Below, piece by piece: positions 2,926 through 16,632 of a stretch of 64,000 bases of DNA (position 1 is the first letter of the stretch; the number at the start of each line of letters is the position of its first letter). Source of the stretch: Cupriavidus taiwanensis. Its GTDB lineage: Bacteria; Pseudomonadota; Gammaproteobacteria; Burkholderiales; Burkholderiaceae. The DNA lies in assembly GCF_900249755.1 (NCBI RefSeq), contig NZ_LT976854.1, positions 1,836,927-1,900,926 on the forward strand. The letters are read 5' to 3'. Made by a program: the position numbers and the translations under genes. A model generated the notes under the pieces. The model was given only the letters and a program-made list of their open reading frames with translations. It was not told where the DNA came from and searched no databases.

Positions 2926-3154
2926 GCGTCGCTCCCGTGCCGTGCGTGTGGTATTTGCCGCCGTCGTTGTCATCTGGCTGCCGCCGCGGCGGATGGCGGA
3001 CGGCAGGTTTCATGACTGGATATCGGCGCGGGGCAACGGGAGTTGAGAGGCGCACGCGGCGCATGTTCGGATTTCATCCTTGCATATCCGGATTGCTTCG
3101 TTCCTGCGGCACGGCGTCGTCCATATAGTGGTTTCCAACTTGTCATAACACGCT

Positions 3155-4033
3155 ATGTCGATCCCCATGACGACCCGGACCAACGTGGTACCCGCCCCCG
3201 CCGCCGCAGCCATGCCGGCACCGATTCCGCTGCCGCTCTATACGCAAATCAAGGACGCCTTGCGCGCCAGCATCCTGGACGGCACCTATCCGCCGCACCA
3301 CCAGATGCCGTCGGAAAGCGAGCTGGGCGAGCGCTTTCGCGCCAGCCGCATCACCGTGCGCCAGGCGCTGGGCGACCTGCAGAAGGAGGGGCTGATCTTC
3401 AAGATCCATGGCAAGGGCACCTTCGTCTCCAAGCCCCGCGCCTTCCAGAACGTGACCTCGCTGCAAGGCTTTGCCGAGGCCATGTCGAGCATGGGCTACG
3501 AGATCCTGAACCAGATACGCAGCTGCAAATGCGTACCTGCCAGCCGTCACGTTGCCACGCAGCTGCGGCTGCGCGAAGGCGATCCGGTGGTGGAGATCCG
3601 GCGCGTGCGCCTGCTCAACCGCGAGCCGGTGTCGCTGGAGCTGACCTGGGTGCCCGAGGCCATCGGCCGCCGCCTGCTCACTGCCGACCTGGCCACGCGC
3701 GACATCTTCCTGATCCTGGAAAACGACTGTGGCGTGAAGCTCGGCCATGCCGACCTGAGTGTCGACGCCATCCTCGCCGACGACGACCTGACCCAGGCCC
3801 TGCGCATCCAGGAAGGCGCGCCGGTGCTGCGCATCGAACGCCTGACCCATGACGCGCAAGGCACGCCGATCGATTACGAGTTCCTCTACTTCCGCGGCGA
3901 CGCGTTCCAGTACCGGCTGCGCGCAGACCGGCGCAAGACCGCGCCAGCCCCCAGCGTCACCAGCCGCGTCACCAGCCCGGCCGGCCGCTCGCGGCCCCGC
4001 AAACCAGCCAGCAAGGGGAAGCCCTCCGCATGA
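3155..4033 (+). CDS. GntR-family regulator, HutC/UTRA subfamily
   Basis: The 292-residue product has an N-terminal winged helix (about residues 25-95; SESELGERFRASRITVRQAL is the typical recognition region) followed by a UTRA ligand-binding domain (about 110-250, ending YEFLYFRGDAFQYRLR). HutC-type GntR proteins usually repress a neighbouring catabolic or uptake operon until a small ligand binds. Its stop overlaps the ATG of the next gene by four bases (ATGA), so it is the first gene of the flavoprotein/ABC operon and probably its local regulator. The start lacks a good ribosome site; a second ATG at 3167 is possible. The last 35 residues are a basic, low-complexity tail. Confidence 0.9.
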   Translation: MSIPMTTRTNVVPAPAAAAMPAPIPLPLYTQIKDALRASILDGTYPPHHQMPSESELGERFRASRITVRQALGDLQKEGLIFKIHGKGTFVSKPRAFQNVTSLQGFAEAMSSMGYEILNQIRSCKCVPASRHVATQLRLREGDPVVEIRRVRLLNREPVSLELTWVPEAIGRRLLTADLATRDIFLILENDCGVKLGHADLSVDAILADDDLTQALRIQEGAPVLRIERLTHDAQGTPIDYEFLYFRGDAFQYRLRADRRKTAPAPSVTSRVTSPAGRSRPRKPASKGKPSA

Positions 4034-5799
4034 ATACCCTGACTCACGAATACGACATCGTTGTCGTCGGCGGCGGCACCGCCGGCCCGATGGCCGCGAT
4101 CAAGGCCAAGGAACGCAACCCCGCGCTGCGCGTGCTGCTGCTCGACAAGGCGCACGTCAAGCGCAGCGGTGCCATCTCGATGGGCATGGACGGCCTGAAC
4201 AATGCCGTGATCCCCGGCCACGCCACGCCCGAGCAGTACACCCGCGAAATCACCGTGGCCAACGACGGCATCGTCGACCAGTCCACCGTTTATGCCTACG
4301 CGCGCCACAGCTTTGCCACCATCGAGCAGCTGGATCGCTGGGGCGTCAGGTTCGAGAAGGACGAGACCGGCGACTACGCGGTGAAGAAGGTCCATCACAT
4401 GGGCTCCTATGTGCTGCCGATGCCGGAAGGACACAACGTCAAGAAGGTGCTGTACCGCCAGCTCAAGCGCGCGCGCGTAGAGATCACCAACCGCATCGTC
4501 GCCACGCGCGTGCTGACCGACGCCAGCGGCGCCGCCAGCGGCGTGATGGGCTTCGACTGCCGCACCGCGGACTTCCACGTGATCCGCGCGCGCGCCGTGA
4601 TCCTGTGCTGCGGCGCGGCCGGCCGCCTGGGCCTGCCCGCTTCCGGCTACCTGATGGGCACCTACGAGAACCCGACCAATGCCGGCGACGGCTATGCCAT
4701 GGCCTATCACGCCGGCGCGGCGCTGGCCAACCTGGAGTGCTTCCAGATCAATCCGCTGATCAAGGACTACAACGGCCCGGCCTGCGCCTACGTGACCGGC
4801 CCGCTGGGCGGCTATACCGCCAACGGCAAGGGCGAGCGCTTTATCGAATGCGACTACTGGAGCGGCCAGATGATGTGGGAGTTCTACCAGGAGCTGCAGG
4901 GCGGCGACGGCCCGGTGTTCCTGAAGCTTGACCACCTGGCGGAAGAAACCATCCAGACCATCGAGACGATCCTGCACACCAACGAACGGCCCAGCCGCGG
5001 CCAGTTCCACGCCGGGCGCGGCACCGACTACCGCAGGCAGATGGTGGAGATGCATATCTCGGAGATCGGCTTCTGCAGCGGCCACAGCGCGTCCGGCGTG
5101 CATGTGAACGAGCGCGCCGAGACGACCGTGCCGGGCCTGTACGCAGCCGGCGACATGGCCGCCGTGCCGCACAACTACATGCTGGGCGCCTTCACCTATG
5201 GCTGGTTTGCCGGGCACAACGCCGCCGACTACGTCGCCGGCCGCGGCCTGCCTGAAGCCGATGCGGCCCAGGTCGAGGCGGAGCGCGCGCGCGTGTTCGC
5301 ACCGCTGGCGCGCGCGAGTGGCCTGCCGCCCGCCCAGGTGGAATACAAGCTGCGCCGCATGGTCAACGACTACCTGCAGCCGCCCAAGGTCACGCGCAAG
5401 ATGGAAATCGGACTGCAGCGCTTTGACGCCATCGCCGACGACATCGGCCAGATCCGCGCCGCCAATCCGCACGAGCTGATGCGCGCGGTCGAGGTGATGG
5501 CGATCCGCGACTGCGCGGAGATGGCGGCACGTGCTTCCCTGTTCCGCACCGAGAGCCGCTGGGGTCTCTACCACCATCGCGTCGACTATCCGCAGCGCAA
5601 TGATGCGGACTGGTTCTGCCATACGCACCTGAGCAAGGATGAAGCCGGGCGCATGGTCAGCCACAAGCGCGCGATCGAACCGTACATCGTCCCGGTGGCA
5701 GGCGACGACGCCACCGCCTACCAGCGGCTGCGCGTCAGCCGCGGCCAGGCTGCCGCCACGGCCGCCACGGCCGAACCCGCCACCCTGGCTGCCGCCTGA
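4030..5799 (+). CDS. AprA-like FAD flavoprotein (fumarate reductase / APS reductase alpha superfamily)
   Basis: The 589-residue protein opens with a Rossmann FAD-binding loop (VVVGGGTAGPMAA, residues 11-23) and keeps the superfamily's capping region and second FAD motif (TTVPGLYAAGDMAAV). The features GFCSGHSASGVHVNE and NPTNAGDGYAMAYHAGA resemble adenylylsulfate reductase alpha subunits more than succinate dehydrogenase. It is followed 13 bases later by a two-cluster ferredoxin of AprB style, which suggests a cytoplasmic AB-type oxidoreductase with an FAD active site wired to Fe-S clusters. The absence of sat or dsr genes nearby argues against classical sulfate or sulfite metabolism. The substrate is unknown; the linked ABC importer suggests an imported organic anion, perhaps a sulfonate. 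Confidence 0.85.
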   Translation: MNTLTHEYDIVVVGGGTAGPMAAIKAKERNPALRVLLLDKAHVKRSGAISMGMDGLNNAVIPGHATPEQYTREITVANDGIVDQSTVYAYARHSFATIEQLDRWGVRFEKDETGDYAVKKVHHMGSYVLPMPEGHNVKKVLYRQLKRARVEITNRIVATRVLTDASGAASGVMGFDCRTADFHVIRARAVILCCGAAGRLGLPASGYLMGTYENPTNAGDGYAMAYHAGAALANLECFQINPLIKDYNGPACAYVTGPLGGYTANGKGERFIECDYWSGQMMWEFYQELQGGDGPVFLKLDHLAEETIQTIETILHTNERPSRGQFHAGRGTDYRRQMVEMHISEIGFCSGHSASGVHVNERAETTVPGLYAAGDMAAVPHNYMLGAFTYGWFAGHNAADYVAGRGLPEADAAQVEAERARVFAPLARASGLPPAQVEYKLRRMVNDYLQPPKVTRKMEIGLQRFDAIADDIGQIRAANPHELMRAVEVMAIRDCAEMAARASLFRTESRWGLYHHRVDYPQRNDADWFCHTHLSKDEAGRMVSHKRAIEPYIVPVAGDDATAYQRLRVSRGQAAATAATAEPATLAAA

Positions 5800-5812
5800 A
5801 GGAACCCACGCC

Positions 5813-6058
5813 ATGGCCTACACCCCGCATGAGATCGCCCAGCGCAGCAGCGCGCCGGTCACCATCGATGAAGACAAGTGCATTGCCGACAAGGGCTGCA
5901 CGGTCTGCGTCGATGTCTGCCCGATGGACCTGCTGGCCATCGACCTGACCAAAGGCAAGGCATTCATGCAGTTCGACGAGTGCTGGTACTGCATGCCCTG
6001 CGAGAAGGATTGCCCGACGGGCGCGGTCAGGGTCGAGATCCCGTACCTGCTGCGTTGA
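5813..6058 (+). CDS. Two [4Fe-4S] ferredoxin, AprB-like partner subunit
   Basis: This is an 81-residue protein with eight cysteines in two groups: Cys23, 29, 32, 36 (CIADKGCTVCVDVCP) and Cys57, 60, 63, 67 (CWYCMPCEKDCP). The wide first spacing, C-x5-C-x2-C-x3-CP, is that of the beta subunit of adenylylsulfate reductase and related proteins. It probably takes electrons from, or gives them to, the flavoprotein encoded just upstream. The ATG at 5813 is well placed, 13 bases after the flavoprotein stop. AprB proteins are longer, with an extra C-terminal tail absent here, so this is a minimal version. Confidence 0.88.
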   Translation: MAYTPHEIAQRSSAPVTIDEDKCIADKGCTVCVDVCPMDLLAIDLTKGKAFMQFDECWYCMPCEKDCPTGAVRVEIPYLLR

Positions 6059-6096
6059 TTGCCGCTTCATGACAACAGCACCACAGAGATAACCCC

Positions 6097-7518
6097 ATGA
6101 AAGCCTCCACCAGCATCCACCTGCTCCTGGCACTGGCCGCCGCCAGCCTGGCCGGCGCGGCCAGTGCCGAAACCATCCGCGTTGCCATCGGCACGCAGGA
6201 CACCACCATCAACTGCGCCACCGGCGGCCTGCTGATCCGCGAACTGAAGCTGCTCGACAAGTACCTGCCCCGCACCGGCAAGTACAAGGACGTCACCTAC
6301 GACGTGCAATGGAAGAACTTCACCTCCGGCCCGCCGCTGACCAACGAGATGGTGGCCGACAAGCTGGATATCGGCGCCATGGCGGATTTCCCCGGCTCAC
6401 TCAATGCCGCGGCCTTCCAGAAGGCCGGCAAGAAGAGCCTGTTCATCGCGCCGCTGTCGGGCAACGCGATCGGCACCGGCAACGGCATCGTGGTGCCGGC
6501 GGATTCCCCGGTCCAGTCGCTGGCGGAGCTCAGGGGCAAGACCATCTCGGTGCCGTTCGGCTCCACCGCGCACGGCATGCTGCTGCGCGCGATCAAGCGC
6601 CAGGGCTGGGACCCGGACAAGGACGTGACCCTGGTGTCGCAGTCGCCCGAGGTCGGCGGCTCGGCGCTGCAGGCGCACAAGGTGGACGGCCATGCCAACT
6701 TCGTGCCCTTCCCCGAGCTCTTTGTCTTCCGCGGCTTTGCCCGCAAGATCTATGACGGCGCCCAGGCCGAGGCCCCCACCTTCCACGGCGCGCTGGTGAA
6801 CGCGGAATACGCGCAGAAGTACCCGGAGATCGTGGTGGCCTACCTGCGCGCCGCGATCGAGGCCGACCGCCTGATGGCGGCCGAGCCCGAGAAATACAGC
6901 GAGCTGATTGCCCGGGTGACCGGCATCGACGCCGAGGTGGACTACCTGTTCCATGGCCCGCTCGGCCTGCAGAACCGCGACTACACCTGGAAGCCGGAGT
7001 ACCGCCAGGCGCTGCAGACGTCGATCGAGACGCTGAAGCTGCTCAAGCGCACCGATGCCGACCTCAGCGCCGACACCGTGATCGACGAGCGCTACATCCG
7101 CGAAGCCTTCAGGCTGGAGGGGCTGGACTATGAAGCGCGCCTGAAGTCCTACGACAAACAGCCCCTCGCGGCGAAGGACGCAGGCAGCGGCAAACCCATC
7201 GCCGAACCGAAGCTGGCCGCGCAGCTGTGGCTGCGGGGCGAGTCCAGGGTGCGCGCCTATGCCTCGCCGGCGGCAGCATTCGCCGCGCTCAGGCAGGCTG
7301 CAAAAGAGGGCAGGCAGGCGCGCGTGCTGTATGTGCATGACCGCAATACCGGCCTGAAGCTGCTGGCCAGCAAGGCGTGGTACGTGCAGGACGGCAAGGG
7401 GCAGGTGAGCGCCTTCCTGCTCAAGGGCTCAGCGGATGGCTGGGCGAAGGCCAATGGTGGCAATGTGCGGGACTTTGCCGCAGTCAGCGGCGCCGCGGTC
7501 GCCGTGGCCAGCAACTGA
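6097..7518 (+). CDS. ABC transporter substrate-binding protein (NitT/TauT type) with NosL-like C-terminal domain
   Basis: The 473-residue precursor begins with a Sec signal peptide, MKASTSIHLLLALAAASLAG, with cleavage likely after ASA at about residue 24. Residues 25 to about 350 form an SsuA/TauA-like periplasmic binding protein (FTSGPPLTNEMVADKLDIGA and VPFGSTAHGMLLRAI are typical). The remaining part is unusual: from AAQLWLRGE through YASPAAAFAALR and KAWYVQDGKGQV to KANGGNVRDF it follows the order of NosL copper-chaperone domains, minus the N-terminal CGM motif. Ordinary members of this binding-protein family end near residue 330. It lies 38 bases after the ferredoxin gene and 14 before the permease gene, so it should supply substrate to the flavoprotein system. 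Confidence 0.85.
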   Translation: MKASTSIHLLLALAAASLAGAASAETIRVAIGTQDTTINCATGGLLIRELKLLDKYLPRTGKYKDVTYDVQWKNFTSGPPLTNEMVADKLDIGAMADFPGSLNAAAFQKAGKKSLFIAPLSGNAIGTGNGIVVPADSPVQSLAELRGKTISVPFGSTAHGMLLRAIKRQGWDPDKDVTLVSQSPEVGGSALQAHKVDGHANFVPFPELFVFRGFARKIYDGAQAEAPTFHGALVNAEYAQKYPEIVVAYLRAAIEADRLMAAEPEKYSELIARVTGIDAEVDYLFHGPLGLQNRDYTWKPEYRQALQTSIETLKLLKRTDADLSADTVIDERYIREAFRLEGLDYEARLKSYDKQPLAAKDAGSGKPIAEPKLAAQLWLRGESRVRAYASPAAAFAALRQAAKEGRQARVLYVHDRNTGLKLLASKAWYVQDGKGQVSAFLLKGSADGWAKANGGNVRDFAAVSGAAVAVASN

Positions 7519-7532
7519 CGCGGAGCGCGCCC

Positions 7533-8378
7533 ATGACCTCGATCAGCCTTGAAGCGGGGGCGCCCCCGGTGGCACCGGCCGCGCCGGGCGCGGCACGCGT
7601 GCGGCTGGCACGCTGGCTGGTACGCCTGGCCGCGCTGGCCAGCTGCATCGTGCTGTGGCAGCTGGCCTCGTCCCACCGGGCCCACCTCGGCCTCGTCACC
7701 TTCGCCAACGTGCCCGCGCCCAGCGACGTGGTTCCTGCGGCCTGGCAGCTGCTGCAGTCACCCAAGCTGGTGCTGCACCTGGGCAACAGCCTGTACCGCG
7801 TGTTTGCCGGCTTTGGCGCGGCGGCCGTGGCGGGCATCGTGCTCGGCATGGCGATCGGCCGCTCGCGCTGGCTGGAAGACCTGCTGCTGCCGCCGCTGGA
7901 GGTGCTGCGCCCGATCCCCGGCGTGGCGTGGATTCCGCTGGCAATCCTGATGTTCCCGTCTTCGGAGATGAGCATGATCTTCATCACCTTCATCGGGGCG
8001 CTGTTCCCGGTCCTGCTCAACACCATCCACGGGGTGGAGCGCACCGACCCGCGCCTGGTCGCCACGGCGCGCAGCCTGGGCGCGCGCCGCTGGACCGTCT
8101 TCCCCGAGGTGCTGCTGCCCGCGGCGCTGCCGAGTATCGTCACCGGGCTGGCGATCGGCATGGGCACGTCCTGGTTCTGCCTGGTCACCGCCGAGATGAT
8201 CGCCGGCCAGTACGGCATCGGCTACTACACGTGGGAGGCCTACAACCTGCAGAACTATGCGGACATCGTCGTCGGCATGCTGCTGATCGGTGTCTTCGGC
8301 ATGGGCAGCAGCGCGCTGATCAAGCGCGTCGGCGCGTGGCTGATGCCGTGGACCCGCCTGCAGCAGGTGCGCGCATGA
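7533..8378 (+). CDS. ABC transporter permease (SsuC/TauC type)
   Basis: The 281-residue product has about six membrane segments and the BPD transporter cytoplasmic loop: IHGVERTDPRLVATARSLGA followed by RRWTVFPEVLLPAALP, which contains the EAA-like contact site for the ATPase. The motif PIPGVAWIPLAILMF is typical of NitT/TauT importers of nitrate, sulfonates and similar anions. It starts 14 bases after the binding-protein gene and its stop overlaps the ATPase start as ATGA, so all three transporter parts should be translated from one message. The inner-membrane channel function is secure; the substrate is not. Confidence 0.93.
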   Translation: MTSISLEAGAPPVAPAAPGAARVRLARWLVRLAALASCIVLWQLASSHRAHLGLVTFANVPAPSDVVPAAWQLLQSPKLVLHLGNSLYRVFAGFGAAAVAGIVLGMAIGRSRWLEDLLLPPLEVLRPIPGVAWIPLAILMFPSSEMSMIFITFIGALFPVLLNTIHGVERTDPRLVATARSLGARRWTVFPEVLLPAALPSIVTGLAIGMGTSWFCLVTAEMIAGQYGIGYYTWEAYNLQNYADIVVGMLLIGVFGMGSSALIKRVGAWLMPWTRLQQVRA

Positions 8379-9181
8379 CGAGCCAGCCGATCCGCGCGGG
8401 CCGCCTGCAGGTGCGCGGCCTGGATGTGGCGCTGGGCCAGGGCGATGCGGCCTTCACCGCCGTGCACCAGCTATCCATCGACATTCCCGCCGGGCAGTTC
8501 GTCTGCATCCTGGGGCCGTCGGGCTGCGGCAAGTCCACGCTGCTGGGCGCCATCGCCGGACACCTGCCGGCGGCGGCGGGCGAGCTGCTGCTCGACGGGG
8601 CGCCGGTGCGCGGCCCCGCGCCGGAGCGCGGGCTGGTGTTCCAGCAGCACTCGCTGTTCCCGTGGAAGCGCGTGCTCGACAACGTCGCCTTCGGCCTGAA
8701 GATGCAGGGCGTGCCCACCGCCGAGCGCAAGCGCGAGGCGCAGGCCCTGCTGGACCTGGTCGGCCTGGGCGGCTTCGCGCAGCGCTACCCCGCCCAGCTT
8801 TCCGGCGGCATGCAGCAGCGCGCGGAGATTGCGCGCGTGCTGATCAACCGGCCGCGCGTGCTGCTGATGGACGAGCCCTTCGGTGCGCTCGACGCGCAGA
8901 CCCGCGCCCATATGCAAGGCCTGCTGCTCGACGTCTGGGCGCGGATGCGCACCACCGTGGTCTTCGTCACCCATGACATCGACGAGGCGCTGTTCCTGGC
9001 CGACCGCGTGCTGGTGATGTCGCCACGGCCCGGACGCATCCTTGAAGATCTCGCCATCCCCTTCGAGCGGCCCCGCCGCGCCGAGCTGATGACCGACGAC
9101 GATTTCATCCGGCTCAAGCGCCGCTGCCGCGACCTGCTGCACGACCACACCCGGGCCAGCGCGCTCGCGACCGCCGCCTGA
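8375..9181 (+). CDS. ABC transporter ATP-binding protein (SsuB/TauB type)
   Basis: A 268-residue cytoplasmic ATPase with Walker A GPSGCGKST, Q-loop FQQHSLFPWKRV, signature LSGGMQQR, Walker B VLLMDEPF with the following GALD, and H-loop VTHDIDEA. These motifs and the LFPWK segment are standard for sulfonate/nitrate/taurine importers. It overlaps the permease gene by four bases. It energises import of the still unknown substrate captured by the NosL-tailed binding protein. Confidence 0.94.
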   Translation: MTSQPIRAGRLQVRGLDVALGQGDAAFTAVHQLSIDIPAGQFVCILGPSGCGKSTLLGAIAGHLPAAAGELLLDGAPVRGPAPERGLVFQQHSLFPWKRVLDNVAFGLKMQGVPTAERKREAQALLDLVGLGGFAQRYPAQLSGGMQQRAEIARVLINRPRVLLMDEPFGALDAQTRAHMQGLLLDVWARMRTTVVFVTHDIDEALFLADRVLVMSPRPGRILEDLAIPFERPRRAELMTDDDFIRLKRRCRDLLHDHTRASALATAA

Positions 9182-9205
9182 CCGCTATCGACCTGACTGC
9201 CATCC

Positions 9206-10204
9206 ATGCCGCAAGCTTCCGCCCTGCCTGACGAATCCCTGTCTGATCTCGATCCCGCCATCGGCGCGCTGACGCTGCGCCTGGCCGACCCCGACCCCGC
9301 GGTTCGACGCGTGGCCGTGCTGCAACTTGCCGACCTGGAGGATGAAGACGGCGTGCCGCTGCTGCTGCAGCGCCTGCAATCGGACCCCGCCGGATCCGTG
9401 CGCGCGGAAGCCGCGCGCACGCTGGCCAGCTGGGAGCAGGAAGCGGTCGTCCCGGCGCTGGCCGCGGCACTGGCCGACCCCAGCCGCGAGGTGGCCGAAG
9501 CGGCAGCACAGGGACTGTCGGAACTGAAGGAGCCCGCCTCCGGTGCCGCCCTGCTGCCGTGGGTCACGCACGGCGATCCCTTTGTCCGGGCGGCCGCGTG
9601 GCGCGGCCTGCGCGAGCTGCGCTATGCGGCAGGCTTCGATGCGGCCATGGCGGCGCTGTCCGACGCGGCCGCCCCGGTGCGCCGCGAAGCGGTGGCCGTG
9701 CTGGGCTGGCTCAGGCGCAGCGAAGCCCTGCCCGCGCTGGCACAAGCTGCGACCAGCGACGCCGATACCGACGTCAGGCGCGCCGCCGCCGGCGCGCTCG
9801 GCCTCGCTGCCGACCCGTCGGCGCGCGATGCGCTGCTGGCGGCCCTGCGCGACGGCGCCTGGCAGGTGCGGGAAGAAGCCGCGCAGACGCTGGGAAAACT
9901 GAAATTCCCTGAAGCCGTGGGCCCGTTGATCGACGCGCTGGAAGACCGCTACTGGCAGGTCCGCGTGCAGGCCGCCAGGGCTCTCGGCAAGCTGCGTGAC
10001 CGCGCGGCGCTGGTGCCGCTGACGCTGCAGCTGGCCCACGCCATCAGCAACCTGCGCAAGGAGGCCGCGCTGTCGCTGGGGAGCCTGGGGGATACGGCAG
10101 CCGTGCCGGCCCTTGCCGCGGCCGCCGACGATGCCGATCCGGAGGTACGCAAGGCCGTGCGCATTGCGCTGGCGCAGATCGGCGCGCCGGAGGGTCATGC
10201 ATGA
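9206..10204 (+). CDS. HEAT-repeat protein
   Basis: The 332-residue protein consists almost wholly of about ten HEAT/PBS-lyase-type helical pairs of around 31 residues, each with a D-x-VR-x-A-AA-x-LG-x-L pattern (for example DPDPAVRRVAVLQLADL, DTDVRRAAAGALGL, YWQVRVQAARALGKL). There is no signal peptide or membrane segment. Such solenoids are usually docking scaffolds; related ones help cofactor loading in bilin lyases and quinone or metal enzymes. Here it starts 24 bases after the ATPase gene and overlaps the DUF971 gene, so I infer a role in assembly or partner recognition for the flavoprotein/ferredoxin pair. That role is not shown by the sequence. Confidence 0.85.
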   Translation: MPQASALPDESLSDLDPAIGALTLRLADPDPAVRRVAVLQLADLEDEDGVPLLLQRLQSDPAGSVRAEAARTLASWEQEAVVPALAAALADPSREVAEAAAQGLSELKEPASGAALLPWVTHGDPFVRAAAWRGLRELRYAAGFDAAMAALSDAAAPVRREAVAVLGWLRRSEALPALAQAATSDADTDVRRAAAGALGLAADPSARDALLAALRDGAWQVREEAAQTLGKLKFPEAVGPLIDALEDRYWQVRVQAARALGKLRDRAALVPLTLQLAHAISNLRKEAALSLGSLGDTAAVPALAAAADDADPEVRKAVRIALAQIGAPEGHA

Positions 10205-10485
10205 GCGGCGGCATGGTCGTACCCACGCGCCTGGAGCTCTCCCGCGCCAACGGCGCGCTGCGCGTCTACTGGCCCGACGGCCAGTGCCAGTCGCTGGACC
10301 CGGGCCGCTTGCGCCCAGCGTGCCGTTGCGCCGCCTGCCGCAGCAAGCCTTCAGAGGCCGGGCCGGGCGACACGCAGATCGTCGCCCTCGGCGAAATGGG
10401 CTATGGCGTGCAGATCGTGTTCAGTGACGGGCACGACCGCGGCATCTACCCGTGGCCATACCTGCAGGCGCTGGCAGGCGCCTAG
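10201..10485 (+). CDS. DUF971 (GBBH-like N-terminal domain) protein
   Basis: This 94-residue protein matches the DUF971 fold: an N-terminal LRVYWPDG strand pair, then the Cys-bearing core ACRCAACRSK and the C-terminal IYPWPYLQAL motif. The domain occurs in gamma-butyrobetaine hydroxylase and is sometimes fused to Mrp/ApbC Fe-S carrier proteins, so a part in Fe-S or metal handling is plausible. The three cysteines in CRCAAC could bind metal. It overlaps the HEAT gene by ATGA and is the last gene of the operon; its TAG stop shares a CTAG with the converging MoaD-like gene. Confidence 0.88.
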   Translation: MSGGMVVPTRLELSRANGALRVYWPDGQCQSLDPGRLRPACRCAACRSKPSEAGPGDTQIVALGEMGYGVQIVFSDGHDRGIYPWPYLQALAGA

Positions 10486-10742
10486 CCGCCCGCCAGCGCC
10501 TGCAGGATATGCACCTCGTCGGTTTCCTTCAATGGCGCATCGAGCCGCATCAGCTGCGTGCGGTTGACAAACACACGGATATACGGCCGCAGCTTGCCCT
10601 GCTCATCGACGATGCGAAAACGCATGCCGGGGAACTGGCGGTCGAGGTCGTCGAGCAGTTCGGCGATGCTGGCGCCGCGGGCCTCGACGTATTCGCGCTG
10701 TCCGGTATAGGAAAACAGCGGCGTCGCGATACGGACCTGCAT
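10482..10742 (-). CDS. MoaD/ThiS-like ubiquitin-fold protein
   Basis: The 86-residue protein has the beta-grasp order of MoaD/ThiS: MQVRIATPLF, a helix SIAELLDDLDRQFPGM, the strand IRVFVNRTQLM and DEVHILQALAGG. It ends exactly in Gly-Gly, the requirement for activation and thiocarboxylation by an E1-like enzyme. No E1 (MoeB/ThiF) or MoaE gene lies nearby. A GGAGG site seven bases before the ATG supports this start. It sits 29 bases downstream of the BNR-repeat gene on the same strand. It could be a sulfur carrier or a protein modifier; function is unknown. Confidence 0.85.
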   Translation of the reverse strand: MQVRIATPLFSYTGQREYVEARGASIAELLDDLDRQFPGMRFRIVDEQGKLRPYIRVFVNRTQLMRLDAPLKETDEVHILQALAGG

Positions 10743-10771
10743 GGGAAGTCCTCCGGGTCGGCGCACGCCGT

Positions 10772-11926
10772 TCAGGCAGGGCGCGCCACGCTCACCGCAT
10801 AGATCTGCGGCAGGTTGCGGGCGATGCATTGCCAGGCATCGCCTTCGTCCGCGCTGGCCCACAACTCGCCGCCGGTGGTGCCGAAGTACACGCCCACCGG
10901 GTCGTGGCCGTCGGTGGCCATGGCCTGGCGCTTGACCGTGAACCAGCCCTGCTCGGCCGGCAGGCCGCGGTCCTGGCGCTGCCAGGTCTCGCCGCCATCG
11001 CGCGTGACATAGGCGGCGGGCCGGCCGCCGGGGCTGACGCGCGGCCACACATCGCTGCCGTCCATCGGAAACACCCACACCGTGCGCGGGTCGCGCGGGT
11101 GCGCCACGATCGGGAAGCCGATGTCGCCGACTTCCTTCGGCATCGCCTCGCCGATGCGCTTCCACACGCCTTCGCGGCGGTCCATCCGGTAGATGCCGCA
11201 ATGGTTCTGCTGGTACAGCAGGTCCGGGTTGGCGGGATGCTGCAGCATGCAGTGCGGGTCCTGGCCGTATTCCGGGTTGGGATCGGGCAGGAAGTTGGCG
11301 ATGCTGCCGCGGTTCAGCGGCTTCCAGTCGGCGCCGGCGTCGGTGCTCTCGAACACGCCGCCGCTGGACATGCCGATATACAGGTGACGCGCGTCGCGCG
11401 GATCGACCAGCACGGAATGCAGCTTGGGACCGTCGGGGGTGCCGTCCTGCTCGCCGCCGGTCCAGGCGCGCCACATCGGATGGTCGTTGAAGCCGCGCAG
11501 CGGCTCCCAGTTCGCGCCATGATCGGTACTGCGGAACAGGCCCTGCGGCGAGGTGCCGGCGTACCAGGTGCCGGGCTCGCTGGCATGGCCGGGGGTGAGC
11601 CAGAACACGTGGTCGACGACGCGGCCGGTCTCGCCCTCCGGCACCTTGTCGAAGGCGGGCGGGCGGGCCGCCTCGGTCCAGTTGCGGCCGCCGTCGCCGG
11701 AGCGGAACACGGTCGGGCCCAGATGGCCGGTGCGCGCCGCCATCAGCAGGCGCGACGGCTCGCGCGGGTCCTGCACGACATGGTGGATGGTATGGCCGAG
11801 GAAGGTCGGGCCTTCGATCTGCCAGCTGCGGCGCGCGGCGTCGCTGGTCAGGAACCAGGCGCCCTTGGTGGTGGCAACCAGCAGGCGGACCGGGCCGGCA
11901 TGTTGGGGAATGGGGGAAGTCGTCAT
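10772..11926 (-). CDS. BNR/sialidase-fold beta-propeller protein
   Basis: The 384-residue protein contains several Asp-box/BNR units (S-x-D-x-G-x-x-W): FRSGDGGRNWTEA, FRSTDHGANWEPL, FESTDAGADWKPL, VTRDGGETWQRQ and ASADEGDAWQC. These build a six- or seven-bladed propeller of the exo-alpha-sialidase/VPS10 superfamily. There is no signal peptide, so it is probably cytoplasmic, and true sialidase catalytic residues are not evident; databases often label such proteins glycosyl hydrolase without proof. The start follows an AGGAG site. It is cotranscribed with the MoaD-like gene. Confidence 0.82.
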   Translation of the reverse strand: MTTSPIPQHAGPVRLLVATTKGAWFLTSDAARRSWQIEGPTFLGHTIHHVVQDPREPSRLLMAARTGHLGPTVFRSGDGGRNWTEAARPPAFDKVPEGETGRVVDHVFWLTPGHASEPGTWYAGTSPQGLFRSTDHGANWEPLRGFNDHPMWRAWTGGEQDGTPDGPKLHSVLVDPRDARHLYIGMSSGGVFESTDAGADWKPLNRGSIANFLPDPNPEYGQDPHCMLQHPANPDLLYQQNHCGIYRMDRREGVWKRIGEAMPKEVGDIGFPIVAHPRDPRTVWVFPMDGSDVWPRVSPGGRPAAYVTRDGGETWQRQDRGLPAEQGWFTVKRQAMATDGHDPVGVYFGTTGGELWASADEGDAWQCIARNLPQIYAVSVARPA

Positions 11927-13832: not shown

Positions 13833-15236
13833 ATGATCGAACAACCCTATCCGTCGCCCGCGGCGGAGGCCGATCCCGCACGCCCCCACGCCCCCCATGT
13901 CCCGGAAGTCCGGGGCCGGCTCGACGCGTTCTTCGAAATCACCGCGCGCGGCAGCACCCAGCGCCAGGAAGTGGTGGCCGGGGTCACCACCTTCATGGCG
14001 ATGGTCTACGCCGTGTTCGTCGTGCCGGGCATGCTGGGCAAGGCCGGCTTCGACACCAGCGCGGTCTTTGTCGCGGTGTGCCTGACCACGGCCTTCGGCT
14101 CGCTGCTGATGGGGCTGTGGGCCAAGCTGCCGATCGCCATCGGCTGCGCCATCTCGCTGACCGCGTTCATGGCCTTCGGCCTGGTGCTGGGGCAGGGCCT
14201 GTCGCCGGCGGTCGCGCTCGGCGCGGTGTTCCTGATGGGCCTGATCTTCACCGCGATCTCGGTCACCGGCGTGCGCAGCTGGATCCTGCGCAACCTGCCG
14301 GCCGGGGTGGCGCACGGCACCGGCATCGGCATCGGCCTGTTCCTGCTGCTGATCGCGTCGAATGAAGTCGGGCTGGTGGTCAAGAACACGCATGCCGGCC
14401 TGCCGGTGGCGCTGGGCAAGATCACCTCGTTCCCGGTGGTGATGTCGGTGCTGGGCCTGGCCGCGATCTTCGGGCTGGAGCGCCGCAAGGTGCCGGGCGG
14501 GATCCTGCTGGTGATCGTCGCCATCTCCGCGCTCGGCCTGGCCTTCGATCCGGCGGTGAAGTTCACCGGCGTGTTCGCGCTGCCGTCGCTGAGCGCGCCG
14601 GGCCAGGCATCGCTGATCGGCGCGATGGACGTGCGCGGCGCGCTGACCGCCGCCGTGCTGCCGAGCGTGCTGGCGCTGGTGATGACCGCGGTATTCGACG
14701 CCACCGGCACCATCCGCGCCGTCGCCGGGCAGGCCGGGCAGCTCAATGCCGCCGGCCATATCCACAACGGCGGGCGCGCGCTGACCGCGGATTCGGTCAG
14801 CTCGATCTTCTCGGGCCTGTTCGGCGGCGCCCCGGCCGCGGCCTATATCGAATCGACCGTCGGCGTGGCCGCCGGCGCCAAGACCGGCCTGACCGCGGTG
14901 GTGGTGGGCCTGCTGTTCGTGGCCGTGATGTTCTTCTCGCCGCTGGCCGCGCTGGTGCCGTCGTACGCCACCGCGCCCGCGCTGATGTATGTGGGCCTGC
15001 TGATGCTGTCGAGCGTCAGCCGCCTGCACATGGACGACCTGGTCGATGCACTGGCCGGCCTGGTCTGCGCCGTGTTCATCGTACTGACCTGCAATATCGT
15101 CACCGGCATCATGCTCGGCTTCTGCACCCTGGTGGTGGGCCGCGTGGTCGCCGGCGAATGGCGCAAGCTCAATGTCGGCACCGTCGCCATCGCGGTGGTG
15201 CTGGCGGCGTTCTACGCCGGCGGCTGGGCGATCTGA
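13833..15236 (+). CDS. NCS2-family purine permease (AzgA/GhxP type)
   Basis: The 467-residue inner-membrane protein has 12-14 predicted membrane segments. The N-terminal [20 protein letters not shown] and the segment [15 protein letters not shown] match the adenine/guanine/hypoxanthine permease branch (COG2252 type), as does the [16 protein letters not shown] motif. It should import a purine base by proton symport; which base is open. An AAGGAG site lies ten bases before the ATG and a strong terminator follows 85 bases after the stop, so it appears monocistronic. Confidence 0.92.
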
Positions 15237-15320
15237 CCCGAAGCTGCATGAGCGCGTCCCGGCCCTTGCCGGGACGCTGACAACCAGATGTCTCCTCCAC
15301 CGCGATCCAGGTGGATTTCA

Positions 15321-15356
15321 AGCCCGGGCTTCCTGCTTTCCCGGGCTGTTTTTTTT
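15321..15356 (+). terminator. Intrinsic terminator of the purine permease gene
   Basis: AGCCCGGG at 15321-15328 pairs with CCCGGGCT at 15340-15347 around an 11-base loop and is followed by eight T residues (15349-15356). This is a textbook rho-independent terminator for the plus strand. The converging lipoprotein gene ends 59 bases further on. Confidence 0.9.
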
Positions 15357-15414
15357 GGCGCTTGCCGCTGGCGCGCTCCGGGCGGACCGCAAGGCGCCAG
15401 CCCGGGCGGCAGCG

Positions 15415-16632
15415 TCAGTTGGGGCTGGGAAAGAGGCCCTCGACGCAGATCATGTAGGTCAGTCCATTGGGCGTGACCGAGCCGAGGTTCGGCAGCGCGA
15501 AATTGCTGGTGCCATCGCCGCCGTAGGTGTTGCCGAGCAGGCTGAACAGGGCCGTGTAGAGATTGATCGGCAGAAGCCGGCCATCGGCAGGCAAGCCCTG
15601 GCCCCAGCGGGCGGCAGTCAGCCACACCGTGCCGATGACGCAATCGACCCCGTTGCTGGAGGAGCCGGCACCACCTGGGGTGCCTAGTCCGGGCACGGTA
15701 CCGGTTGCGCCCGTAGCGCCCGTTGCGCCCGTAGCGCCCGTAGCGCCCGTAGCGCCCGTAGCGCCCGTTGCGCCCGTTGCTCCCGTTGCTCCGCTTGGCC
15801 CTGTTTCGCCCACGGGACCCACGGCTCCAGTGGCACCCGTCGCGCCCGTGGCACCAGTCGCGCCCGAGGGACCTGTGGCACCCGTTGCACCCGCCGCGCC
15901 CGTCGCCCCGGTGGGGCCTTGCGGACCCGTGGCACCTTGCGGGCCCGTAGCGCCCGTAGCGCCCGTGGGGCCGGTCGCTCCCGGCGCACCCACGTCCCCC
16001 CGTGCAAGCTGTGCCGCCACGTCAGTCAGCGTGGCGTTGGTGGCGGCCAGGCGCGCCTGCAGCGCCTCGAGCCGGTCGTCGTAGGCATCGCCATGGCGAG
16101 GCGAGAATTTCTGGGTAAGCAGGTCCAGGCTGTCCGCCTCCACGCCCAGGTTGGCCAGGCGCAGTTTGACCATGGTCTGTGCAGTCTGCAGCCGGTTGCC
16201 TGCCGCCGCCGCGGCGACAGCCGAGAAAGTCGTGAAGAACGCTTCCGTGTCCGGGTTTTCGGTAGCCGACGCCACCACCAGTTCAGTGATCGGCGTGATA
16301 TTGATGTTGCCCGGGCCCTGCACCAATGTGTGCAGCGGCAAGCCAGCCGCCGTCACGACCCGGCCGGCGCATGGCAGCGTCAGGCCAGCGCTTGAAACCG
16401 ACCAGCTGCCGTCATCGCCAGTGGTGGTGCGGGCCTGGCCGGCCACGCATTTGAGCAGGACTTCTGCGTTGACGATAGGGGCGCCGGTTGCGGCGACTCC
16501 GGAAATCGTGGCGCTCGGCAGCGTCCCCGGGGCAGCCGGCGCGCCGCCATTGCTATCGTCGCCACCGCCGCAGCCTGCGACCAGGATGGCGGTAGCCGTT
16601 GACAGGCTGGTAGCCCATTTGTGTTGATGCAT
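15415..16632 (-). CDS. Lipoprotein with collagen-like repeats and phage tail-collar domain
   Basis: The 405-residue precursor has a lipoprotein signal (lipobox LVAGC, Cys21), a Gly/Asp linker, a small beta domain (about 40-110, [20 protein letters not shown], like carboxypeptidase-regulatory or Ig-like folds), a helical stalk (about 115-210), about 32 Gly-X-Y triplets mostly Gly-Ala-Thr (about 212-308), and a C-terminal tail-collar domain ([20 protein letters not shown] then [14 protein letters not shown]). This suggests a lipid-anchored, trimeric surface fibre. The ribosome site AAGGGG before the ATG at 16632 supports the start. It is divergent from a glycosyltransferase gene that may decorate its Thr-rich triplets. 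Confidence 0.85.
15705..16000 (-). repeat. In-frame 9-base/18-base repeats encoding Gly-X-Thr triplets
   Basis: This tract repeats GCGCCCGTA/T-type 9-mers in tandem and encodes the collagen-like part of the lipoprotein. The left end (15705-15790) is nearly pure repeat and is a likely site of length change by slippage or recombination. It is coding, not a CRISPR or non-coding satellite. Confidence 0.85.

Follow-up and report, generated by a model that had tools for sequence, protein, structure and literature searches.

We analysed a window of 64,000 nucleotides from Cupriavidus taiwanensis, located on the second-largest contig (2.36 Mb) of a 5.95 Mb genome, and in it an operon of eight genes. 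All eight were called as open reading frames (ORFs) on the plus strand between positions 3155 and 10485. They encode a GntR/UTRA regulator (R), an AprA-like flavoprotein (A), a small ferredoxin (B), the binding protein (S), permease (P) and ATPase (T) of an ATP-binding cassette (ABC) importer, a HEAT-repeat protein (H) and a DUF971 protein (D). Judged from its sequence, the operon is probably a sulfonate-scavenging module, and most probably one of the asf type, which serves aromatic sulfonates. We counted for this reading the kinship of A with AprA and with 3′-phosphoadenosine-5′-phosphosulfate (PAPS) reductase, the sulfonate-type importer, the CWxC motif of the ferredoxin and the exporters linked to related clusters.

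The operon is likely to be the arylsulfonate system asfRABC, judged by gene order, adjacency and taxa; no AsfA name appeared among the 120 protein matches listed. An earlier note on this DNA had called the operon undescribed, which is probably wrong, since composition and order match those reported for asfRABC. The asf set of Pseudomonas putida S-313 reportedly consists, in this order, of a regulator, the reductase AsfA, the ferredoxin AsfB and the binding protein AsfC, plus ABC transport. The gene asfA is said to serve as a marker in soil studies, and asfA-asfB has reportedly been amplified from Variovorax, Cupriavidus, Burkholderia, Pseudomonas and Rhodococcus. The S-313 system, said to have been described by Vermeij et al. 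1999, reportedly acts in the desulfurization of aromatic sulfonates and is needed for these but not for aliphatic ones. The operon in the window shares with it the gene order R-A-B-binding protein, A and B being adjacent and followed by S. Variovorax, Cupriavidus, Burkholderia and Pseudomonas also carry the operon described here, as does an actinobacterium other than Rhodococcus. Unlike asfRABC as reported, the operon includes HEAT and DUF971 genes within the unit. The importer type and sulfonate as sulfur source are also shared with SsuEADCB and TauABCD. Ssu cleaves with an FMNH2 monooxygenase and Tau with an Fe(II)/2-oxoglutarate dioxygenase; in contrast to those systems, the operon contains neither.

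Conservation of the operon and its sulfur-gene neighbours

Neighbourhoods were counted by tblastn in the best 80 of at least 592 relatives of A, all with at least 81% identity in the best segment. Five loci were dropped as too short, which left 75 whose flanks sufficed. A, B and H were found in all 75 loci, R in 74, D in 65 and the importer genes S, P and T in 43; all eight genes were present in 35. The operon is a real and widespread unit whose genes co-occur beyond chance, and the search for co-conserved neighbourhoods proposed in the earlier note came out in favour of the gene set. Based on these counts, R, A, B, H and D form the core, while the importer is an optional insert between B and H. 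The dense packing of the same-strand genes that had been described was confirmed by the ORF coordinates, with three ATGA overlaps (at 4030, 8375 and 10201) and other intergenic gaps of 13, 38, 14 and 24 nt. The families guessed for the eight genes agree with Pfam and NCBIfam profile matches (Table 1). The NosL-like tail that had been claimed for the binding protein gave a weak match in the window (20.2 bits against a cut-off of 24), yet NosL was matched at E≤0.01 in 8 of 12 orthologues.

The nearest relatives of A among the best 80 belong to Cupriavidus. Members 57–96% identical to the window protein occur in an actinobacterium, Cyanobacteria, Alpha-, Beta- and Gammaproteobacteria and Acidithiobacillus. 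The distribution of the flavoprotein in Pseudomonadota is patchy: it was found in 15 of 299 genomes of a phylum-level sample and, over the cut-off, in 21 of 399 genomes of an order-level sample. A was found in 53 plasmid records and B in 48. The ‘plasmid’ records of Acinetobacter baumannii (NZ_CP104448, NZ_CP077849 and NZ_CP064203) are chromosome-sized at 3.7–4.1 Mb, and the plasmid location of the operon there is therefore doubtful.

Sulfur genes adjoin a number of the clusters. Exporters of the TauE and YeiH types (sulfite/sulfate) are linked in Leptolyngbya and Pseudanabaena, and TauE in Aquabacterium. In Nostoc the neighbours are metX and O-acetylhomoserine sulfhydrylase, in S. fredii LLM monooxygenases, and in C. 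pinatubonensis an SfnB-like gene (under the cut-off) and an NtaA/DmoA-type gene. At least one of 11 probed sulfur genes was present in 22 of the 80 loci (21 without the Paraburkholderia locus L014, which was the source of its own probe) versus none of 20 stretches of the own genome, a comparison in which most probes came from the family's neighbourhoods and the background is one genome. At L014 a methanethiol oxidase-like gene (14016-15422, minus strand; SBP56 family, by eye) adjoins the operon.

The flavoprotein and ferredoxin pair

Flavoprotein A scored well over the cut-off of the PRK08275 model (NF006131; 1143.7 versus 587 bits) and under that of the aprA model (176.7 versus 641.75 bits). 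Its best solved relative is the alpha subunit of the Methanothermococcus PAPS reductase (8a8o, E=8e-57), which aligns over nearly its full length with 29% identity. A is the genome's one full member of the family; two other matches are distant paralogues, with 25 and 29% identity to A in the search and 23% in the alignment. For comparison we aligned 29 members, namely the window protein and 28 others chosen from 110. In a tree with a midpoint root and long outgroup branches, all 29 formed one clade next to AprA and PAPS reductase, the split between A and AprA was fully supported, and the clade stood apart from the SdhA- and NadB-like paralogues of the own genome. This tree, also proposed in the earlier note, places A in a discrete clade that is sister to AprA plus PAPS reductase.

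The sulfonucleotide site of AprA, which we take to include Arg265, Arg317 and Trp234, corresponds in A to Leu, to no residue and to Tyr, respectively. The Leu was found in all 29 members, whereas 8a8o keeps the Arg of its LRVKD motif; the arginine of CLRNH is missing from A. The Arg of the PRD motif and the His of FHPT, presumably the catalytic residues of SdhA and FrdA, are replaced in A, which reads WSGQM and INP at these places. The equivalent of AprA His398 is retained as H352 within GHSASG. It is thus highly improbable that A-B is an adenosine-5′-phosphosulfate (APS) or PAPS reductase of sulfate assimilation. Although its nearest solved structure is such a reductase, the identity is only 25–29%, the residues presumed to bind the sulfonucleotide are replaced or absent, A and AprA separate in the tree and a sulfonate-type importer lies alongside. 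Just as improbable is an ordinary fumarate reductase, succinate dehydrogenase or aspartate oxidase, as the automatic names and shared Pfam domains would have it: besides the replaced catalytic residues, identity to the own paralogues is low and the operon has no membrane or SdhB partner. Both identities were rejected on active-site residues and the tree.

Motif comparison showed that B has two 4Fe-4S motifs and has GCxxC...CP and CWxC in common with AprB. For this comparison, a motif scan yielded AprB from 5 of 10 AprA loci. With 81 residues, B ends where the C-terminal tail of AprB starts, and it scored 39.2 bits against an aprB cut-off of 135.65. The A-B pair resembles AprAB in its flavoprotein family, its FAD motif and its ferredoxin subunit with CWxC. 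It differs from AprAB in that A lacks the sulfonucleotide-binding arginines, B lacks the AprB tail and the operon has no sat, qmo or dsr gene.

Among the 29 members, 189 of the 589 residues of A are invariant. They are densest in segments 194–281 (55/88), 46–80 (19/35), 120–140 (11/21) and 318–358 (21/41); other segments are mostly 0–28% invariant, with 359–400 and 491–532 at 40–45%. We take the dense segments to include, by homology, the substrate-site loops of AprA and SdhA, some of which also touch FAD. Such conservation of a putative substrate site would exceed the needs of an electron carrier and fits an enzyme with one fixed substrate. A has no NAD(P)H-binding half, since Pyr_redox_2 matches only residues 8–39, the start of the FAD Rossmann fold.

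A distant flavoprotein subfamily was found at three loci (L164, L165 and L166), with 31–32% identity to A and ∼340–355 bits to NF006131, which is under the cut-off. B, H and the importer were not found near these flavoproteins. The subfamily could be a bridge between A and AprA.

Electron supply, SsuD and rival functions

We inspected 32 further regions. Three hold only the distant flavoprotein relative described above, and in the 29 left we found B (29), H (28), the importer (27), D (23), FdxA (14), a PRK06567-like protein (9), FNR (7) and YeiH (5). We classed as a second type, or second architecture, those loci in which the binding protein comes closest to the Methylobacterium type (S2). Its clusters add FdxA, an NAD(P)H module (FNR or PRK06567-like) and, in some cases, YeiH. 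A PRK06567-like protein or FNR was present in 16 of 17 second-type loci versus none of the 12 others; the one second-type locus with neither, L162, has an importer of mixed type. The PRK06567-like protein of Acidithiobacillus caldus scored 607 bits against a cut-off of 1072. The dedicated feed from NAD(P)H to ferredoxin in the second type argues that A-B receives electrons.

SsuD was scored in 34 genomes that carry A, either by the model cut-off or as any match with E≤1e-30. It was over the cut-off in 18, matched in 19 and had no match in 15. Of the 15 genomes without SsuD, ten have a completeness of 98% or more and five lie at 66%–97%; no other genome of the 34 falls in that lower range. SsuD exceeded the cut-off in every one of the 11 inspected genomes that carry the window-type importer, the window's included, as well as in two genomes without a linked importer (G564 and G028). 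In contrast, none of the 11 inspected second-type Burkholderiales genomes had a match. The contrast of 7/7 versus 0/11 second-type Burkholderiales gives p = 1/31824, about 3e-5, which is not a true probability because the genomes are related, and the contrast may be phylogenetic. SsuD was rejected as an obligatory partner since it is missing from the inspected second-type Burkholderiales; its absence is a pattern of this order and not a rule. Among ORF families common to at least three of the 32 loci, no oxygenase was recognised by eye. Judged by eye alone, the recurring families without a name looked like antisense or alternative reading frames of known genes, apart from a PAS-like protein in three loci.

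Because no recurring oxygenase was recognised and 15 of the 34 carriers have no SsuD match, we read A-B as an electron-fed enzyme that would cleave the sulfonate and release sulfite. More tentatively, the pair may represent a new class of desulfonating enzyme, in which an AprAB-type flavin/[4Fe-4S] protein fed by ferredoxin breaks the C-S bond of the sulfonate independently of SsuD-type monooxygenases, via a flavin-N5-sulfite-like step and with or without O2. The ‘AsfA reductase’ would then be the desulfonase, with HEAT and DUF971/Mrp proteins as its dedicated maturation machinery.

It is unlikely, though a serious alternative, that A-B is a mere electron-transfer pair, a flavoprotein reductase with its ferredoxin, which feeds a separate monooxygenase such as SsuD. 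This is the role that the literature reportedly gives to asfAB, and it would explain why B is a ferredoxin, why every inspected window-type-importer genome and the two genomes without a linked importer have SsuD, why flavin monooxygenases lie near some clusters and why desulfonation in P. putida S-313 is said to depend on O2. However, a reductase without an NAD(P)H-binding half, with a strongly conserved putative substrate-site region and with a separate gene for the NAD(P)H oxidoreductase in the second type does not fit this role well, nor does the lack of a recognised recurring oxygenase, or of an SsuD match in so many carriers. We give somewhat less credence to a third view, that A-B acts on another imported anion (a nitro compound, an aromatic acid, or a phosphonate-like or thiocyanate-like anion) and that the sulfur neighbours are incidental. 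In its favour, nitrate, taurine and sulfonate all fall within the broad importer family, UTRA regulators bind varied ligands, and 58 of the 80 loci have none of the 11 probed sulfur genes. Against it stand the closest relatives of A, AprA and PAPS reductase, and the linkage of YeiH/TauE in two cyanobacteria and several Pseudomonadota.

Several observations weigh against an asf-type module with A-B as its cleaving enzyme. The importer is missing from 32 of the 75 loci. The 58 loci without a sulfur gene were scored with a probe set chosen from the family's own neighbours, and the TauE, YeiH and MetX probes matched none of the 80 loci. The system also occurs on a plasmid of A. caldus, where sulfur starvation is implausible. 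Oxygenases adjoin some clusters: 7 of the 80 loci have an NtaA/DmoA-type enzyme and 4 an MsnO8-type one, LLM enzymes lie near those of S. fredii and C. pinatubonensis, and a Rieske protein adjoins D in P. sprentiae. SsuD is over the cut-off in four of six second-type genomes outside Burkholderiales, which are alphaproteobacterial by similarity. The AlphaFold model of A is poor, with a predicted local distance difference test (pLDDT) score of 60. A purely reductive cleavage by A would also leave unexplained that desulfonation in S-313 reportedly takes in O2 and depends on ssu. The S-313 regulator AsfR is reportedly of the LysR type, whereas the operon here has a GntR/UTRA protein.

Candidate operator, probable maturation partners and proposed mechanism

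Table 1. Positions in the window of the operon genes and the candidate operator
Feature	Positions	Strand	Evidence
Palindromic operator (candidate) ACTTGTCATAACACGC	3138..3153	+	Just 5′ of the regulator gene; consensus WCTTGTYATRACAAGW
R: GntR/UTRA regulator, probable local repressor	3155..4033	+	Pfam GntR 69.7 bits, UTRA 133.2 bits
A: AprA-like FAD flavoprotein, PRK08275 family	4030..5799	+	NF006131 1143.7 bits; FAD_binding_2 and Succ_DH_flav_C
B: small two-cluster [4Fe-4S] ferredoxin, AprB-like CWxC	5813..6058	+	Fer4_7; aprB model 39.2 bits
S: SsuA/TauA/NrtA-type substrate-binding protein, degenerate NosL-like tail	6097..7518	+	NMT1/SsuA-type; SsuA_fam 122.1 bits, cut-off 163.5
P: ABC permease, nitrate/sulfonate/taurine type	7533..8378	+	BPD_transp_1
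T: ABC ATPase, nearest taurine/Sao/nitrate ATPases, below their cut-offs	8375..9181	+	ABC_tran
H: HEAT-repeat protein, probable assembly/docking partner of A/B	9206..10204	+	HEAT_2 203 bits
D: GBBH-like_N (formerly DUF971) protein, probable Fe-S maturation helper	10201..10485	+	72 bits

A site with at most two mismatches to ACTTGTNATNACAAGT was found in 88 of 101 GntR-bearing loci, compared with a mean best of 5.8 mismatches in shuffled sequences; the pattern was read from the same loci and the count is therefore descriptive. The own genome has two sites with at most two mismatches, and a reversed-pattern control gave one. Among 40 relatives, five genomes had a site with at most one mismatch, three of them before R/A and two not. 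From these counts, R probably acts locally, and it is probably a local repressor that uses the putative operator palindrome. Regulators vary among other clusters of A, with LysR-type genes beside it in two cyanobacterial clusters and Crp-type genes elsewhere. The LysR-type regulators (L099:9379-11415 and L101:9676-11676, both on the minus strand) are about 670 residues long. That of L099 has an NMT1-type substrate-binding domain after its LysR domains in Pfam, and is thus a regulator fused to an ABC-binding-protein fold.

The second site in the own genome adjoins another GntR/UTRA-like gene (G000:C2, about 1226400-1234300; L181:4424-12256), which is 35% identical to R and has a similar perfect palindrome. 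Its neighbours, named by eye, are a sulfatase-like gene on one side and a GMC oxidoreductase, a TauD-like dioxygenase and an aldehyde dehydrogenase on the other. This locus is perhaps another organosulfur cluster. In the window, two minus-strand genes at 10482-11926 converge on the operon end; judged by eye, one encodes a small ThiS/MoaD-like protein and the other a BNR/sortilin-repeat-like protein. The MoaD-like gene and D overlap in their stop codons.

H scored 83.7 bits against the HEAT end of PRK13800, a model of a flavoprotein fused to HEAT repeats. As in PRK13800, A and H are fused into one chain, of 893 residues, in the actinobacterium Tsukamurella (L102), whereas in the window they are separate genes. 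An Mrp/NBP35 ATPase that carries an FeS_assembly_P domain follows H on three cyanobacterial plasmids, and DUF971 (D) was not found in these three clusters by tblastn. The plant protein HCF101 joins Mrp and DUF971 domains. The presence of Mrp after H where D is absent and the fusion of A with H support, by association only, a role of H and D in Fe-S maturation. D is probably a maturation helper and H probably an assembly or docking partner of A/B. The module of import, redox and helper genes outlined in the earlier note found partial support, with the AprA/AprB-like pair, the strong co-occurrence, the fusion and the Mrp genes all in its favour.

For the sulfonate-scavenging module that we favour, we infer the substrate, the electron direction, the sulfite product, catalysis by A, the maturation roles and repression as follows. 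S, P and T would import an organic sulfonate. Electrons would pass from NAD(P)H to ferredoxin, then through the two [4Fe-4S] clusters of B to the FAD of A. The ferredoxin would be a housekeeping one in the window type and a dedicated FdxA with FNR or the PRK06567-like protein in the second type. The sulfonate would bind in A, between the FAD domain and the capping domain, and be cleaved there. The sulfite released would enter assimilation or, at loci with a linked YeiH/TauE, be exported by it. H and D (or Mrp) may help to insert the Fe-S clusters or to dock B on A. R would act through the palindrome at the operon start and keep its own operon repressed until it binds a ligand related to the substrate.

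Sulfonates make up much of the organic sulfur in soil, and asfA serves as a marker gene for bacteria that free this sulfur for plants. If the operon is asf, we regard as new the case for AsfA as a catalyst of the AprAB type, the second architecture, which supplies its own electrons, the helper proteins (HEAT, DUF971 and Mrp) and the operator. If A-B does cleave the sulfonate, the mechanism assumed for aromatic desulfonation would change and AprAB-type flavoenzymes would gain a new reaction. Second-type Burkholderiales that have no SsuD match and their own NAD(P)H-ferredoxin feed are natural systems for a direct test of cleavage by A-B.

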